This document shows positions 24,769 through 32,389 of a stretch of 39,164 nt of DNA, in pieces (position 1 is the first letter of the stretch; every line of letters starts with the position of its first letter). Made by a program: the position numbers and the translations under genes. This DNA is from Gallionellaceae bacterium (GTDB lineage: Bacteria; Pseudomonadota; Gammaproteobacteria; Burkholderiales; Thiobacillaceae), in assembly GCA_028695325.1 (NCBI GenBank), contig JAQVJE010000007.1, positions 1 to 39,164 of the forward strand. Direction: 5' to 3'. The notes under the pieces are model-generated. The model did not search any database, was not told where the DNA came from, and saw only the letters and a list, made by a program, of their open reading frames with translations.

Positions 24769-27700
24769 TCACCCCGGTAGCCTGCGCCCGCGCCACAGCA
24801 GGTAGGCCACCGGGATCACGAACATCGACAGCAGCGGCGCCGTGATCATGCCGCCCAGCATCGGCGCGGCGATGCGCTGCATGACCTCGCTGCCGGCGCC
24901 ACCGCCGACCATGATGGGGAACAGGCCGGCCAGGATCACCGCCACCGTCATCGCCTTCGGGCGTACGCGCAGGACGGCGCCGTCCATGATCGCCGCCATG
25001 AGGTCGGCGCGGCTGTCGAGGCGGCCCTCGGCCTGGCGCCTGGCCACAGCCTGGTCGAGGTAGATCAGCATCACGACGCCGAACTCCGCCGCCACCCCGG
25101 CCAGGGCGATGAAGCCCACCGCTACCGCCACCGACATGTTGAAGCTGAGCAGGTAGAGCAGCCAGTAGCCACCGATCAGGGCGAAGGGCAGGGTGGCCAT
25201 GATCAGGACCGGTTGCCAGAAATTGCGGAAGGTGAGGTACAGGAGCACGAAGATCGCCGTCAGGGTGAGCGGCACCACCAGCTTGAGGCGCTGTACCGCA
25301 CGCTCCATGAACTCATACTGGCCCGACCAGGCGATCGAGTAGCCCGCCGGTAGCGTGACCTTCGCCGCCACCTCCAGCTTGGCCTGGGCGACGTAGCCGC
25401 CCAGGTCGCCGCCCCGGATGTCGACGAATATCCAGCCGTTCGGACGTGCGTTCTCGCTTTTCAGCATGGGCGGGCCGTCGGCGACCCCGATCCGGGCCAC
25501 CGAGGCGAGGTGCACCGTGGCACCCGTGCGGGTGACGATGGGCAACCGGCCGATGGCCTCGACGCTGTCGCGCGTCTCGCGCGGGAAACGGATCTGCACC
25601 GGGTAGCGCTCCAGTCCTTCCACCGTCTCGGTCACCGTGGCGCCGCCCACGGCGATACCGACCAGTTCCTGGACGTCGGCGATGTTGAGGCCGTAGCGGG
25701 CGGCCGCCGCGCGGTCGATGTCGACGTTCAGGTAGCGCCCGGCGGCTACCCGCTCGGAGAAGGCGCTGGCCGTCTCCGGCATGGCCTTTAGCACCGCCTC
25801 GATGTCGGCGCCGATGCGTTCGATCACGGCCAGGTCCGGCCCGGCGATCTTTACCCCGATGGGGCTCTTGATGCCGGTGGACAGCATGTCGAGGCGGGTG
25901 CGGATGGGCTGGATCCACAGGTTGGCGAGGCCGGGTATCTGCACGTTGCGGTCAAGTTCCGCGATGATGCTCGCCAGGGTCTGGCCGGGCCGCCAAGCGG
26001 ACGGGTCCTTGAGCTGGATGGTGGTCTCGATCATGGTCAGGGGCGCCGGGTCGGTGGCGGTGTCGGCGCGGCCGATCTTGCCGAACACCGACTTCACCTC
26101 AGGTACGGTCTTGATCATGCGGTCGGAGATCTGTAGCAGCTCGGCCGCCTTGCCGGGCGACAGGCCGGGCAGGGTGGTCGGCATGTAGAGCAGGTCGCCC
26201 TCGTCGAGGGGCGGGATGAACTCGCTGCCCAGCTTCGCGGCCGGGTAGGCCGTTGCCGCCAGGGCCAGGAAGCCGACCACCAGGCCGCTCCTGGGGTGCC
26301 GGAGGGCGAACTGGATCAGGGGGCGGTAGAGGGCGATCAGGCCCCGGCTCAACGGGTTGCTGTGCTCGTCCCGGATGCGGCCGCGGATGAACAGGCCCAT
26401 CAGGACCGGGATCAAGGTCACCGACAGGCCGGCCGCTGCCGCCATGGCGTAGGTCTTGGTGAAGGCCAGGGGCGCGAACAGGCGGCCCTCCTGGGCCTCC
26501 AGGGTGAACACCGGCAGGAAGCTGACGGTGATGATGAGCAGCGAGAAGAACAGGGCCGGCCCCACCTCGACGGCGGCATCCCGCGCCAGCTCGAAGTAGT
26601 CCGCCCCGCCCGGCTCCTGGCCCGGGCGCGCTTGACGCCACGCCTCCAGGTGTTTGTGCATGTTCTCGATCATGACCACGGCGGCGTCCACCATGGCGCC
26701 GATGGCGATGGCGATGCCGCCGAGGGACATGATGTTGGCGTTGATGCCCTGCTGGCGCATGACCATGAATGCGATCAGGATGCCCAGGGGCAGGGAGATG
26801 ATGGCCACGAGGGACGAGCGCAGGTGGAACAGGAAGGCTACGCAGACCAGGGCGACGACGACGAACTCTTCCGCCAGGCGGTGGGTCAGGGTCGCCACCG
26901 AGCGCTGGATCAGGCCGGAGCGGTCATAGGTGGACAGGATCTCGACGCCTTCGGGCAGGCTGTTCTGCAATTCCGCCAGCTTGGCCTTGACCGCGGCGAT
27001 GGTGCGCATGGCGTTGGCGCCATAGCGCATGACGATGACGCCCCCCACCACCTCTCCCTCACCGTCCAGCTCGGCGATGCCGCGGCGCATCTGGGGTCCG
27101 ACCTGGACCCGCGCGAGGTCGCGCAGCAGCACCGGTGTGCCGGCCTGGCCGAGCCCCACCGGGACGGCCTCGATGTCGGCCACCGACCGCAGGTAGCCGG
27201 TGGCGCGCACCATGTACTCCGCCTCGGCCATCTCCAGCACCGAGCCGCCGGCCTCCTGGTTGGCTCGCTTCACCGCTGTCACCACCTGGGCGAGCGGGAT
27301 GCCGAGGGCGCGCATGCGTGCGGGGTCGATGACGACCTGGTATTGCTTCACCATGCCGCCGATGGTGGCCACCTCGGCGACGTTCGGGATGGCCTGCAGC
27401 TCATATTTCAGGAACCAGTCCTGCAGGCCGCGCAGCTGGCCGGGGTCGTGCCGGCCGCTCCTGTCCACCAGGGCGTACTCGTAGATCCAGCCCACTCCGG
27501 TGGCGTCGGGCCCGATGCTCGGCTTCACGCCAGCCGGCAGCTTGCCGGCCGCGCTGTTCAGGTACTCCAGGACGCGCGAGCGCGCCCAGTACAGGTCGGT
27601 GCCGTCCTCGAACAGGACGTAGACGTAGGAGTCACCGAACATGGAGTAGCCGCGCACCACCTTGGCGCCGGGCACCGACATCATGGTGGTGGCCAGCGGG

Positions 27701-27900
27701 TAGGTGACCTGGTCCTCCACCACCCGTGGTGCCTGGCCCGGGAAGGAGGTGCGGACGATGACCTGGACGTCGGACAGGTCGGGCAGAGCGTCCACCGGCG
27801 TGTTGACCACCGCCACCGTGCCCGCCGCCGTGGCGATCAGAGTGGCGAGCAGGACCAGGAAGCGGTTGTGGATGGACCAGCCAATCAGCTTGGCGATCAT
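24769..27900 (-). CDS. cusA: CusA-type heavy-metal efflux RND permease
   Basis: 1043 aa; [37 protein letters not shown]; retains [26 protein letters not shown] and [11 protein letters not shown] segments that carry the CusA substrate methionines. Confidence 0.95.
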
Positions 27901-27910
27901 GGCGGCCTCC

Positions 27911-29362
27911 TCAGGGTCTGCGCCGGATGGCGGTGACGACGAAGCCGCCGTCCTGCCCGACCATCTCGAACTCCACTGCCGTGCCCGGCTTCAGGCCCTG
28001 CAGGATGGTCTTGTCCCGCACTGCGAAATCCATGGTCATGGCTGGCCAATCGAGGGCCGGGATGGGGTCGTGCTGCATGGTCAGCGCGCCGCTGCCGGCG
28101 TCCGCCGCGACGATGCGGGCGGTGCCGGTATGGACGTCGCCGCCGGGCGGCTTCAGCCTGTCCAGGGCGCCCTTGAGGTTCGCTTCCGACTCGATCAGGA
28201 ACTGGCCCGAGGTGACCACCCGCTCGCCGCCCGCCAGTCCCCTGTACACCAGGGTCTGGCCGTTGTTCTCCATGCCGGTCTCCACTTGGACAGGGGTGAA
28301 GCGGCCTTCGCCTTCGGCGACCAGCACCACGGCGCGCTTGCCGGTGTGGATGACCGCCTCGCTGGGCACGATGACGCCCTCCTCGCCCTTGCCGGCGTAG
28401 AGGGTGACGTTGGTGTACATGCCCGGCTTCAGCCTGAGGCCGGGGTTGTCTAGGACGATGCGCGCCTGCACCGTGCGGGTGGTGCTGTCCAACTTCGGGT
28501 AGATGTAGTCCACCCGGCCCTCGAAGGTCTCACCCGGCAGGGCGGCCAGGGTGATCTCGGCGCTCTTGCCCGGCACCACCCAGGTGGCCTGGTCCTCGAC
28601 GATCTCTGCCGTGACCCAGACCCGGTCAAGGTTGGTGATCTCCAGGATGGGCATGCCGGCAGTAACCTGGGCGCCAGGGTGGACGCGGATGTTGCTGACG
28701 ATGCCGCCTGCCGGGGCGTAATAGCTCACCCGCCGCTGCGCCTGGCCGCCCTTGGCCAGGGCGTCGATCTGGCGGGCCGGGAGGCCGAGGAAGGCCAGCT
28801 TCTGGCGCGCGGCGGCGCTCCAAGCGGCGTCATCCGGGTGCCGGAGCGCCAGGATGAACTCCTCCTGGGCGGCGTAGAGATCAGGGCTGTAAACCTCGGC
28901 GACGAGCTGGCCCCTGCGCACCGGGTCGTTGACCGCATGCACGTGTAGGGCCTCGATCCATCCGGCGGTGCGCGCCTGCAGGAACTCGACGCGGTTGTCG
29001 TCGGCGCGCACGTAGCCCACCGTGTCGATGCGTCGCCAGAGCTTGCCGACCGTCGCCTCGGCGGTGCGCACGCCGAGGTTCTGCAGCGTGCGGGGGTCGA
29101 TCCGGATGCCGGCGCCGCTGTTCTCGTCGGCGTACCTGGGCACCAGGTCCATGTCCATGAAGGGTGACTTGCCCGGCTGCTCGAAGTGCTGGTCCGGCAC
29201 CATGGGGTCGTACCAGTAGAGTACCTTCCGGTCGCCGGCCTGGGCGGCCGGCGTGGCGTCCGCGGGCGCCGCCTGGGGGTGGCCGAGGCCGTACCAGACG
29301 GCGCCGCCACCCAGGGCGGTGCCGGCGAGCAGGGCGGCGATGAGCTTGACCGTGGTGTTCAT
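27911..29362 (-). CDS. cusB: CusB-type periplasmic adaptor with C-terminal CusF-like domain
   Basis: [31 protein letters not shown] metal-binding N-terminus; HlyD/CusB core; C-terminal [42 protein letters not shown] resembles CusF. Confidence 0.93.
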
Positions 29363-30633
29363 GGCTGGATCTCCGTGGTCAGGTAGTCGATCTGCAGCTG
29401 GGCGCGCGCCAGGGCGGCGCGCTGGCCGAGCAGGCCGAGGCGAGCCTCAAGTTCGGCGCGCCGGGCCTCGGCGATGCGGCCGTAGCTGGCGCGGTCGCTG
29501 CCATAGGCGGCGAGCGTGCTGTCGATGCGCTGGCCGGCCAGGGGCAGGGTCTCCTTCTCGTAACGCGCGATCCGGGCGCGTGCCGCCTGCCATTCGGCAA
29601 GGGCCTCCTCCAACTCGGCGCGCAGGCTCAGGCGGCGGTCGACGAGCATCTGCTCGGCCTGGGTGACGCGTGCCTCGCTGGCGGCCAGGCGGCGGTCTTG
29701 GCGGTTGGCGCTGAACAGCGGCAGGTCCATGCCGATCCCGAAGGAGACGAAGTCGGGCCGGCCGTCACCGCGATGGCCGTAGCCGAGGTCGAAGGTCAGG
29801 TCGGGCCTGTAGGCGGCGCGGGCGATCTCTACCTCGGCGCGCGCCACGGCCACGGCGCCGGACAGGGTGGTCAGTTCCGGGTGCTGCTCCAGGCGGGTCG
29901 CCAGTTCCGCCAGGGGCGGCAGTTCGGCGGCCGCGGCGAGGTCGGCGAGGGGGCGGGCGGCGTCGCCGCCAAGCCAGCGCGCCAGGGCGGCACGGCCGCG
30001 CCGTCCCTGGCGTTCGAGGTCGTCCATCCGGTCAAGGGTGGCCTGTACCCGGTCGCGCAGGGCGGCCACCTCGTCGAGGGCCAGCTTGCCGGTCTTATAG
30101 GCCACCTCGGCCCATTCCAGCTGGCGATCCCACTCCTGGCCGAGGCGCCGGACCAGGCCGGCGGAGGCCTCTGGCAGCCAGGCCGACAGCCAGGCCAGGC
30201 CGGCGTCCCGCGCCACCCGCTTGCGGCCGGCCTGGTATTGCCGGCGGGCCTGGTCGGCCGCCAGTTCGCCGCGCCGGCTGGCCAGTCCGGCCCGCCCCCC
30301 GCCGGGTACGGTCTGGCTGACCCCGACGGTGAGCTGGGTCATGGGTTCCTGGACGAAGCTGAAGCTGTCAGTGGGCAGGCTGGCAAGGCCCAGCCTCAGC
30401 TTGGGGTCGGGCCACTGGGCAGCGGCCACGGCGGTCGCGTCGGCCGCCTCAACGGCGGCGGCCTGGGCCTCCAGGAACGGTTGTCGGGTGGTGGCCAGGC
30501 GAGCGGCGTCGCCCAGGCCGAGTGGGGCGGGGGCCCCGGCATGGGCCGCGCCGAGCAGAAGGATGATGACCAGGAGACCGAAGGGCAGCCACCAGCTGCG
30601 CCGGACGCGGCCTTGGCATTTGGGACAGGACAT
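29359..30633 (-). CDS. cusC: CusC/TolC-family outer-membrane efflux protein
   Basis: TolC-type repeats with 4-nt overlap to cusB; ATG at 30633 preceded by GGAGG; N-terminus MSCPKCQGRVRRSWWLPFGLLVIILLLGAAHAG. Confidence 0.9.
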   Translation of the reverse strand: MSCPKCQGRVRRSWWLPFGLLVIILLLGAAHAGAPAPLGLGDAARLATTRQPFLEAQAAAVEAADATAVAAAQWPDPKLRLGLASLPTDSFSFVQEPMTQLTVGVSQTVPGGGRAGLASRRGELAADQARRQYQAGRKRVARDAGLAWLSAWLPEASAGLVRRLGQEWDRQLEWAEVAYKTGKLALDEVAALRDRVQATLDRMDDLERQGRRGRAALARWLGGDAARPLADLAAAAELPPLAELATRLEQHPELTTLSGAVAVARAEVEIARAAYRPDLTFDLGYGHRGDGRPDFVSFGIGMDLPLFSANRQDRRLAASEARVTQAEQMLVDRRLSLRAELEEALAEWQAARARIARYEKETLPLAGQRIDSTLAAYGSDRASYGRIAEARRAELEARLGLLGQRAALARAQLQIDYLTTEIQP

Positions 30634-30637
30634 GGCG

Positions 30638-30717
30638 GAACCTCCACGCGTGAACGCGAACTGCCGTCCGGCCGGGCGGCCGACGGCACTTGCCCCGCAA
30701 CGGGGCGCGGGAGGTTC
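30638..30717 (-). promoter_or_regulatory. Putative SD-sequestering branched RNA structure between Cys-rich leader ORF and cusC
   Basis: Minus-strand RNA: 5' arm GAACCTCCCGCG (30717-30706, starts within the leader stop codon) pairs with 3' arm CGCGTGGAGGTTC (30650-30638, contains the cusC SD) with one bulge; encloses hairpins 30692-30706 and 30662-30688. Confidence 0.6.
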
Positions 30718-31081
30718 AGGATCTGGGTGGTGGCGGTTCCGGCGAGGGTAGGCTGGCCGCCACCAGCTGCGGCGCCGCGACCGGATGGTCGGAGGCCGGC
30801 GCGGCCAGGGCCAATGCGGCGGCGGTCGGTAAGGCGACGGTCATGGCGCAGTGGCAGGACGAGCCCTTCTTGCAGCAGCAACCGCCCGGCACGGCCTCGA
30901 TCGGCTCGGCCGCTGGCTGGGCCGCCTGGGCGTGGTGCGTACAACCGCCCGCCGCCGACTCCTGGGGTGGTGCCGCCAGGGCGGCCAAGGCCATGGGCTG
31001 GCCCAGGGGCGAGCAGGCCAGGGCGAACATCAGCGCCGCGTGCTGGGCGGCGGCGAGGGCGGCGTGCAGGCGGCGTCTCAC
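30716..31081 (-). CDS. Small Cys-rich exported protein / candidate copper-sensing leader peptide (CopL/DUF2946-like in character)
   Basis: GTG start overlapping the upstream RR stop (GTGA); hydrophobic N-terminus, GGCTHHAQ and GGCCCKKGSSCHCAM, C-terminus LPSPEPPPPRS. Confidence 0.75.
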   Translation of the reverse strand: MRRRLHAALAAAQHAALMFALACSPLGQPMALAALAAPPQESAAGGCTHHAQAAQPAAEPIEAVPGGCCCKKGSSCHCAMTVALPTAAALALAAPASDHPVAAPQLVAASLPSPEPPPPRS

Positions 31082-31713
31082 GCCCGGCGGGCCTTCTTGA
31101 GGTGCTGCAGGACCAGGGTGGCCACCTGTACGCGGTTGTGGAAGCCCAGCTTCTGCATGATGTTGGCCAGGTGGTTGCGCACCGTGTTGTCGGAGAGGTC
31201 GAGCTTGGCGCCAATGACCTTGTTGCTGTAGCCCTGGGCGACGTATTCGGCGATCTCCATCTCGCGCGCCGACAGGGCGGCCAGGGGGGCGTCCTGGGCG
31301 CCGGCGCGGTAGAGCTTCTGCAGTATGGCGGGCGGGAAGGCGCCAGCATCCTGCAGGACGATGCCGATGGCGTGGCTGATCTGCTCGGTGTCCGAGGTCT
31401 TCAGCAGGTAGCCGTCGACGCCGGCCTCGATGGCGGCGCGGATCTCCTGGTCGTCGTCCTCGACGGTGAGGATGATCACCTTCATGCCGGCGCCCTTGAG
31501 CAGGGGCACCAGTTCAAGGCCGTCGCCGTCCGGCAGGCTGCGGTCGAGCACCGCGACGTCGGCCTGGCCGCCACCAGCCAGCCAGTCGTGCACGCAGGCG
31601 AGGTCGGCGCATTCCTGGCTGACCGTCAGGCCGGCCAGGCTCTCCACTGAATGGCGCACGCCCAGGCGGATGAGCGGGTGGTCGTCGATGATGAGGATGC
31701 GGATGGGGTTCAT
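31078..31713 (-). CDS. NarL/LuxR-family response regulator
   Basis: REC (ILIIDDHPLIRLGV, VAVLDRSLPDGDGLELV) plus LuxR HTH (LSAREMEIAEYVAQGYSNKVIGAKLDLSDNTVRNHLANIMQKLG). Confidence 0.92.
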   Translation of the reverse strand: MNPIRILIIDDHPLIRLGVRHSVESLAGLTVSQECADLACVHDWLAGGGQADVAVLDRSLPDGDGLELVPLLKGAGMKVIILTVEDDDQEIRAAIEAGVDGYLLKTSDTEQISHAIGIVLQDAGAFPPAILQKLYRAGAQDAPLAALSAREMEIAEYVAQGYSNKVIGAKLDLSDNTVRNHLANIMQKLGFHNRVQVATLVLQHLKKARRA

Positions 31714-31771
31714 GTCGGCCTGTTTGTTATTGCTTTGCGGTTCATCTTAGCGCAAAGGCGGCCTGTGCGTG

Positions 31772-32389
31772 CTAGCGACGCCCCTCCTTGGCGATCAGTT
31801 CGCCCGCCACCGCCAGGGTGCGCGCGTTGCTGCCGGTCATCGACGAGCTGGTCAGGTACTTGCCATTCACCGCCAGGGCGGGCACACCGTTGACCTTGTA
31901 GGCACGCTGCAGTTGCTTGGCACGGGCGACCTTGGTGCCGGTGGCGAAGGACTCATAGGCGGCCTTCAGGCGGGCGCGGTCGAGGCCCTTTTTGGCGCCC
32001 CAGTTGAAGAAGTCCTCCGGGTGGGTGAGGTTCTTGTCCTCGATGTGGATGGCGTTGAACATCTCGGCGTGCAGGCGGTCGAGCGCCCCCATGGCATCGA
32101 GGGCGAAAAAGGCGCGCGCCATGGGTTCCCAGCTTTCGTTGAAGATGACCGGCTGGCGCTTGAGGACGACGTTCTTCGGCAGCTTCCTGGCCCAGGCGTT
32201 GAGGTCCGGTTCCAGCTCGAAGCAGTGCGGACAGGTGTAGGCGAAGAACTCGATCACCTCGATCTTGCCGCGGTTCTCGGTCTGTTGTGCGGGCGACAGC
32301 ACCGCGTAGTCCTTGCCAGCCTCGGCGGCGCTGGCGAGCGGTGCGCTCAGGGACAGGATCAGGGCGGCGGCGAGGTGGGCAAGGCGCAT
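31772..32389 (-). CDS. dsbA: Thiol:disulfide interchange protein DsbA
   Basis: Signal peptide MRLAHLAAALILSLSAPLASA, IEVIEFFAYTCPHCFELEP, NGVPALAVNGKYLTS. Confidence 0.93.
   Translation of the reverse strand: MRLAHLAAALILSLSAPLASAAEAGKDYAVLSPAQQTENRGKIEVIEFFAYTCPHCFELEPDLNAWARKLPKNVVLKRQPVIFNESWEPMARAFFALDAMGALDRLHAEMFNAIHIEDKNLTHPEDFFNWGAKKGLDRARLKAAYESFATGTKVARAKQLQRAYKVNGVPALAVNGKYLTSSSMTGSNARTLAVAGELIAKEGRR

Follow-up and report, generated by a model that had tools for sequence, protein, structure and literature searches.

What does a short cysteine-rich reading frame do directly in front of a copper-efflux operon? The question is raised by a 39,164-nt stretch of a Gallionellaceae bacterium (contig JAQVJE010000007.1; hereafter the window), in which the minus strand reads, in order, a LuxR-type regulator, a small ORF, cusC, cusB and cusA (Table 1). 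A sequence-only reading of this DNA had pointed to a Cys-rich small ORF upstream of cusC ending in LPSPEPPPPRS-stop, and we confirmed it at 31081-30716 (121 codons). Its stop codon, at 30718-30716 (minus), is followed on the same strand by an 82-nt gap and then by cusC, whose ATG is at 30633-30631 (minus) and whose closest named relatives come from Parasulfuritortus cantonensis, a Gallionellaceae MAG and a Thiobacillus MAG. We consider it probable that the ORF encodes a CutF-like cis-acting peptide and that its junction with cusC acts as a switch on the translation of cusC and, through coupling, of cusBA.

Table 1. Features of the leader/cusC locus, in window coordinates.
Feature	Position	Strand	Basis
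LuxR-type response regulator, upstream of leader	31078..31713	(-)	
Leader ORF, CutF-like, 121 codons, GTG start, signal-peptide-like N-terminus	30716..31081	(-)	ORF list and alignments
PEPPPPRS codons, candidate ribosome-slowing tail	30719..30742	(-)	Peptide-level conservation, synonymous Pro and Arg codon changes
5' arm (anti-SD) of stem, starting at G of the TGA stop	30707..30717	(-)	Fold, post-stop 16-mers, alignment
Inner hairpin 1, GCCCCG-TTG-CGGGGC	30692..30706	(-)	Fold; kept in five-locus alignment, no double changes
Inner hairpin 2, TGCCGTC...GACGGCA	30662..30688	(-)	Fold; corresponding helix has double changes in five of eight pairs
3' arm of stem, holding the cusC Shine-Dalgarno	30638..30650	(-)	Fold, alignment
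cusC Shine-Dalgarno (SD) GGAGG, 7 nt from ATG	30641..30645	(-)	
cusC, outer membrane efflux protein (OEP), proposed gated gene	29359..30633	(-)	Pfam OEP
cusB, N-terminal heavy-metal-binding domain and fused C-terminal CusF domain	27911..29362	(-)	Pfam HlyD_D23
cusA, RND transporter	24769..27900	(-)	Pfam ACR_tran

The leader peptide carries a CTHH motif, a Cys cluster CCCKKGSSCHC (GGCCCKKGSSCHCAM; CCCKKGSSCHCAM) and the proline-rich tail LPSPEPPPPRS. Relatives were found in 14 of the 118 genomes of the family, one of the 14 by a weak match, and a search of plasmids for relatives found none. Cys, His and tail positions are common to seven aligned leaders, CxH, CxC and PxxPPP to twelve, and by eye the alignment also conserves a basic n-region and a hydrophobic stretch at the N-terminus. 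The tail reads PEPPPPR followed by S, A, T or L and the stop in most relatives, or else PxxPPP near the stop, with two residues between the last Pro and the stop in 10 of 12 leaders. The distance from CxC to PPP is 37–39 residues in all twelve, over total lengths that range from 108 to 122. Among the five close loci, dN was below dS in every pair (dN 0.26–0.54, dS 0.59–1.11), and synonymous differences occur at Pro and Arg codons of the tail, so that selection acts on the peptide tail. In one further member of the genus (G006; L023 and L029, C29:27698-28047) the leader is frameshifted, and the DNA past the stem region reads by eye as an RND transporter (cusA-like); this looks like either a decayed operon from which cusB and cusC are gone or a join made in assembly.

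The GTG start of the leader overlaps the stop of the regulator gene as GTGA, and since this overlap is conserved in L003, L004 and L005, the leader and the regulator gene are probably coupled in translation. The regulator was rejected as a fixed part of the switch, being near-universal in the family (99 of 118 genomes, versus 14 of 118 for the leader) and lying on a different contig from the leader in G003, G071 and G074. It probably supplies transcription and coupled translation for the leader. A consensus scan of 30500-32000, which says little in a GC-rich genome, returned no sigma-70-like promoter or intrinsic terminator. On the downstream side, the CusC N-terminus MSCPKCQG (window 30633-30610, minus) precedes the signal sequence and is identical in four loci (window, L003, L004/L013 and L005/L014), the CusC of L003 having kept it at just 50% identity overall. 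Its codons vary synonymously at two positions, and the motif is absent from L006 and L027; the Cys pair is possibly a cytosolic metal-binding n-region.

We compared the leader with the copper leaders already described, and it is very probably of the CutF-like kind. In R. capsulatus, CutO production is set by CutF, a nascent copper sensor that is exported, through its Cys motif and proline tail together with a stem over the cutO SD (PMC9973294), the Cys motif and the tail both being required (PMC8456105, PMC9973294). CutF, encoded in the cutFOG operon, has 118 aa against 121 here, and shares with the leader a signal-peptide-like start, a central Cys motif, a tail of the form PPPRx-stop, a Cys-to-PPP distance of about 40 and a stem over the SD of the next gene. 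Its motif is C69xxxC73 and its tail PEPEGPPPRL118 (PMC8456105), which by our own count on the published residues gives a spacing of 40 residues. It differs in preceding a multicopper oxidase gene and in having CxxxC rather than CCxKKGxxCxC. CutF-like genes were collected by an iterative profile search starting from CutF and by rules that ask for fewer than 150 aa, PP in the last 15 residues, an N-terminal signal peptide and a same-strand gene at most 1000 nt downstream (PMC9973294); the leader has 121 aa, PPPP at residues 116–119 and a same-strand cusC 82 nt downstream, and the stem over the next gene's SD is present as well, as computed and with covariation.

The gene arrangement is therefore one already known from the CutF survey, in which OEP genes (often annotated CusC, CzcC or SilC) are the most frequent downstream neighbours of CutF-like genes, with TonB-like and PCuAC genes ranking next (PMC9973294). 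The surveyed CutF-like genes before OEP/CusC, including the SilD and CusD nodes, have the same position and rule-based features as our leader; they were reported without a stem, covariation or function, and the survey looked at gap lengths (PMC9973294). The sequence-only reading had taken the whole design to be undescribed for an RND pump. As to gene arrangement this fails, although the stem mechanism was demonstrated there for cutO only (PMC9973294). A literature search on CusC with ribosome stalling gave the CutF paper alone as relevant. For both cutF and copL, a copy supplied in trans is reported not to complement deletion of the leader (PMC9973294). CusD of C. metallidurans is described as a TAT lipoprotein with other metal-binding motifs; without metal stress it is the only gene of cusDCBAF to be expressed, and it is proposed to sequester Cu(I) (PMC10304878).

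A DUF2946-type identity, also suggested from the sequence, was not borne out: none of seven leaders matched PF11162 at E<=1, and tail and spacing fit R. capsulatus CutF and not the RAPP of CruR. CruR (Bordetella pertussis, DUF2946) is likewise a copper-sensing nascent-peptide uORF with a Cys motif and a C-terminal Pro arrest motif (PMC9426467, PMC12992588), but it works through RAPP, CXXC, Rho-dependent termination, repression by copper and a long gap. The leader has CxC and PPPPR in place of CXXC and a C-terminal RAPP, and is thus not of the CruR type. The same genome holds a separate DUF2946 gene (L001; G000 C187:521-859, minus) with the tail SHAPPTLS; after it come a short ORF and an apparent SCO1/SenC-type gene. 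The CopL family (NF033807) also consists of cis-acting Cys-rich leaders of copper resistance genes, and its profile shows weak similarity to five of seven leaders (best E 0.0052); at 13.7 bits versus a cut-off of 40, the window leader falls outside it. SecM, VemP and MifM resemble the leader in that stalling of the ribosome uncovers an SD farther downstream (summary in PMC9973294); they sense protein export, whereas a metal ligand is proposed here.

We then turned to the junction itself. The sequence-only reading had drawn a stem of 8 bp, a 1-nt bulge and 4 bp with two hairpins inside. The minimum free energy (MFE) fold keeps 8 bp from the G of the stop codon, the 1-nt bulge and 3 bp, together with both inner hairpins; the fourth pair is lost, its G30706 folding into inner hairpin 1. 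The 101-nt junction has a folding energy of -51.4 kcal/mol (z = -2.9; 2 of 200 dinucleotide shuffles fold as well) and the 201-nt region a z of -1.55, so that stability by itself is moderate evidence. The unusual part is the position of the stem rather than its stability. The SD partner falls at the stop codon in 2 of 200 intergenic shuffles of the window, and pairing with the cusC SD region is as strong in just 1 of 256 post-stop 16-mers, a null set taken from the window and the loci, that one being probably the locus itself. Rfam gave no credible match over 30300-31300, the two listed being microRNA models far below their cut-offs.

Several lines of evidence indicate that this stem is under selection. 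All five loci of the genus that are intact have it, and so do two remote ones. RNAalifold on five junctions recovered the stem and the inner hairpins, with two-sided changes in 10 of 29 pairs. The observed percentage paired, double changes or covariation score was reached by 0 of 500 column shuffles, a count that is no probability because the loci are few and related, and in controls where partners were slid by 1–3 columns pairing dropped from 85.5% to 38–49%. Across the outer stem of the seven loci, with the register set by hand and one or two small bulges allowed, two-sided changes occur at five of nine positions, among them all of stop positions 4 to 8. The arms read, for example, GAACCTCC/GGAGGTTC in the window, GAACCCTC/GAGGGTTC in L004 and GAATCTTC/GGAGATTC in L006. 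When 5' arms were swapped among the seven loci, 4 of 5040 permutations, the unswapped one among them, scored at least as high in total as own pairing; with five non-redundant loci 1 of 120 did, the own arrangement only. These covariation counts rest on few events, closely related loci being few. The register is also shared, with stop+4..+8 holding the SD partner in the window, L003, L004, L005, L006 and L046 and +3..+8 doing so in L027; intergenic shuffles give a stop-anchored partner in 0.5–3.5% of cases (11.5% for L027). Stem covariation and a conserved polyproline tail in orthologues were what the sequence-only reading had staked itself on; both were found, and the reading was not refuted. 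Overall it is partly supported, and comparison of the aligned loci favours a translated leader, a Cys cluster, a polyproline at fixed distance and a compensating stem anchored at the stop.

How might such a junction work? As long as no ribosome pauses, the stem beginning in the leader stop would sequester the cusC SD by pairing. The leader would be exported co-translationally, copper (or silver) would bind the Cys/His cluster of the nascent chain, and elongation or release would be delayed with the PPPPR tail inside the ribosome. Held there, the ribosome would occupy the stop codon together with the 5' arm, which would free the SD and allow cusC to be translated. Export, metal binding, stalling and copper as the activating signal we infer from CutF; the conserved anatomy, the selection on the tail, the fixed Cys-to-Pro spacing, the covarying stem, the stem/stop register and the lower computed cost of SD opening once that region is covered are features of these loci themselves. 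Toeprints of CruR place both RAPP Pro codons in the P and A sites (PMC12992588), and a ribosome with the last Pro in its P site would here cover the stop and roughly six more bases, the stretch that the 5' arm occupies. With the RNA covered through stop+6, the computed SD opening cost in the window falls from 12.3 to 4.8 kcal/mol, most of the drop coming by stop+5; covering to stop+6 to +9 lowers it from 15.9 to 5.0 in L004, from 9.1 to 0.7 in L006 and from 12.2 to 5.7 in L027. Against the mechanism stand the 3–5 kcal/mol still left in the window when covered, the 10 of 17 leader/OEP junctions that have no stop-anchored stem, and a LepB fusion in which the CutF tail alone, without its Cu motif, gave no stall (PMC9973294).

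The same stem could be opened more simply. Under plain translational coupling, a ribosome ending at the leader stop would open it with no copper-dependent stall, and the leader, a periplasmic copper-binding peptide, would merely fix stoichiometry. Such coupling needs exactly the stem and stop-codon anchoring found here, and the conserved GTGA overlap probably couples the leader in turn to the regulator gene before it; yet it leaves unexplained both a terminal PPPPR maintained through synonymous codon drift and the fixed distance of 37–39 residues from CxC, and we regard it as unlikely. The extreme C-terminus and its spacing, which suit a nascent-chain sensor, also speak against a free-standing periplasmic copper chaperone or buffer with an incidental RNA fold, as do the covariation of the stem and its register to the stop. 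An exported-type Cys/His-rich peptide adjoining a copper pump would fit that role, which has been proposed for C. metallidurans CusD (PMC10304878), but of all the readings we give it the slightest chance.

Rho-dependent attenuation of the CruR or TnaC kind, in which a paused ribosome blocks Rho and sets transcription into cusC, draws on the excess of C over G (46–47% versus 27–33%) on the coding strand at the leader 3' end, and on CruR as a precedent for a copper-sensing uORF with Rho termination (PMC9426467) whose arrest was shown in vitro (PMC12992588). The CruR system, however, requires a rut region free of structure, its gap measures 162 nt and its tail is RAPP, whereas the leader has no DUF2946 match and is separated from cusC by a short, strongly folded gap in which a covarying stem masks the SD. 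We judge attenuation highly improbable and retain the translational switch as the preferred reading.

We also examined how far the stem extends beyond these loci. An SD partner at stop+4..+8 (L027: +3..+8) occurs in 7 of 17 leader/OEP junctions; in the other 10, including family members L008, L022 and L024-L026, a stop-anchored stem is absent or unconvincing, as it is in most of a second family. A stem universal across leaders is thus ruled out, and in these ten junctions either the leader acts differently or the stem is dispensable. In L008, L022, L026 and L041, which have no stop-anchored stem, the SD is predicted to pair with codons of the leader tail (stop -13 to +3), because Pro codons reading CCT CC form an anti-SD; such pairing may be a variant of this gate, or may simply reflect C-rich sequence. 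Among roughly two dozen evaluable DUF2946 junctions, with starts and SDs picked automatically, none pairs most of the SD at stop+4..+8, and several pair it with the Pro-codon tail, as CCN codons would predict. The DUF2946-matching loci have mostly RAPP tails and often stand upstream of TonB-dependent receptor-like genes. In other gammaproteobacterial families, remote relatives of the leader lie almost without exception ahead of an OEP-like gene, as judged from the protein start rather than a profile search, but in most of them a stop-anchored stem is missing. The pairing of leader and OEP thus reaches further than the stem does. Small Cys-rich leaders with RPP or PPP tails and very low sequence similarity stand before OEP-like genes in L038-L046 and L106-L118, which span several such families.

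The CutF survey placed many CutF-like genes before RND pump genes, with the stem mechanism demonstrated for one multicopper oxidase. To this the present locus adds an RND pump operon whose SD-masking stem is backed by covariation and register. It is conceivable, if somewhat doubtful, that stop-anchored SD-masking stems, each coupled to a metal-sensing polyproline leader, form a recurrent design of RND outer-membrane-factor genes, with the register set by the footprint of the paused ribosome, independently arisen or kept in several proteobacterial lineages, by which periplasmic copper would switch on pump assembly at translation. A compact, covarying, stop-anchored stem before cusC offers a clean, testable case of translational pump switching by a leader. 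If true, this would add a translational layer to the transcriptional (CusRS/CueR-type) picture of copper efflux.
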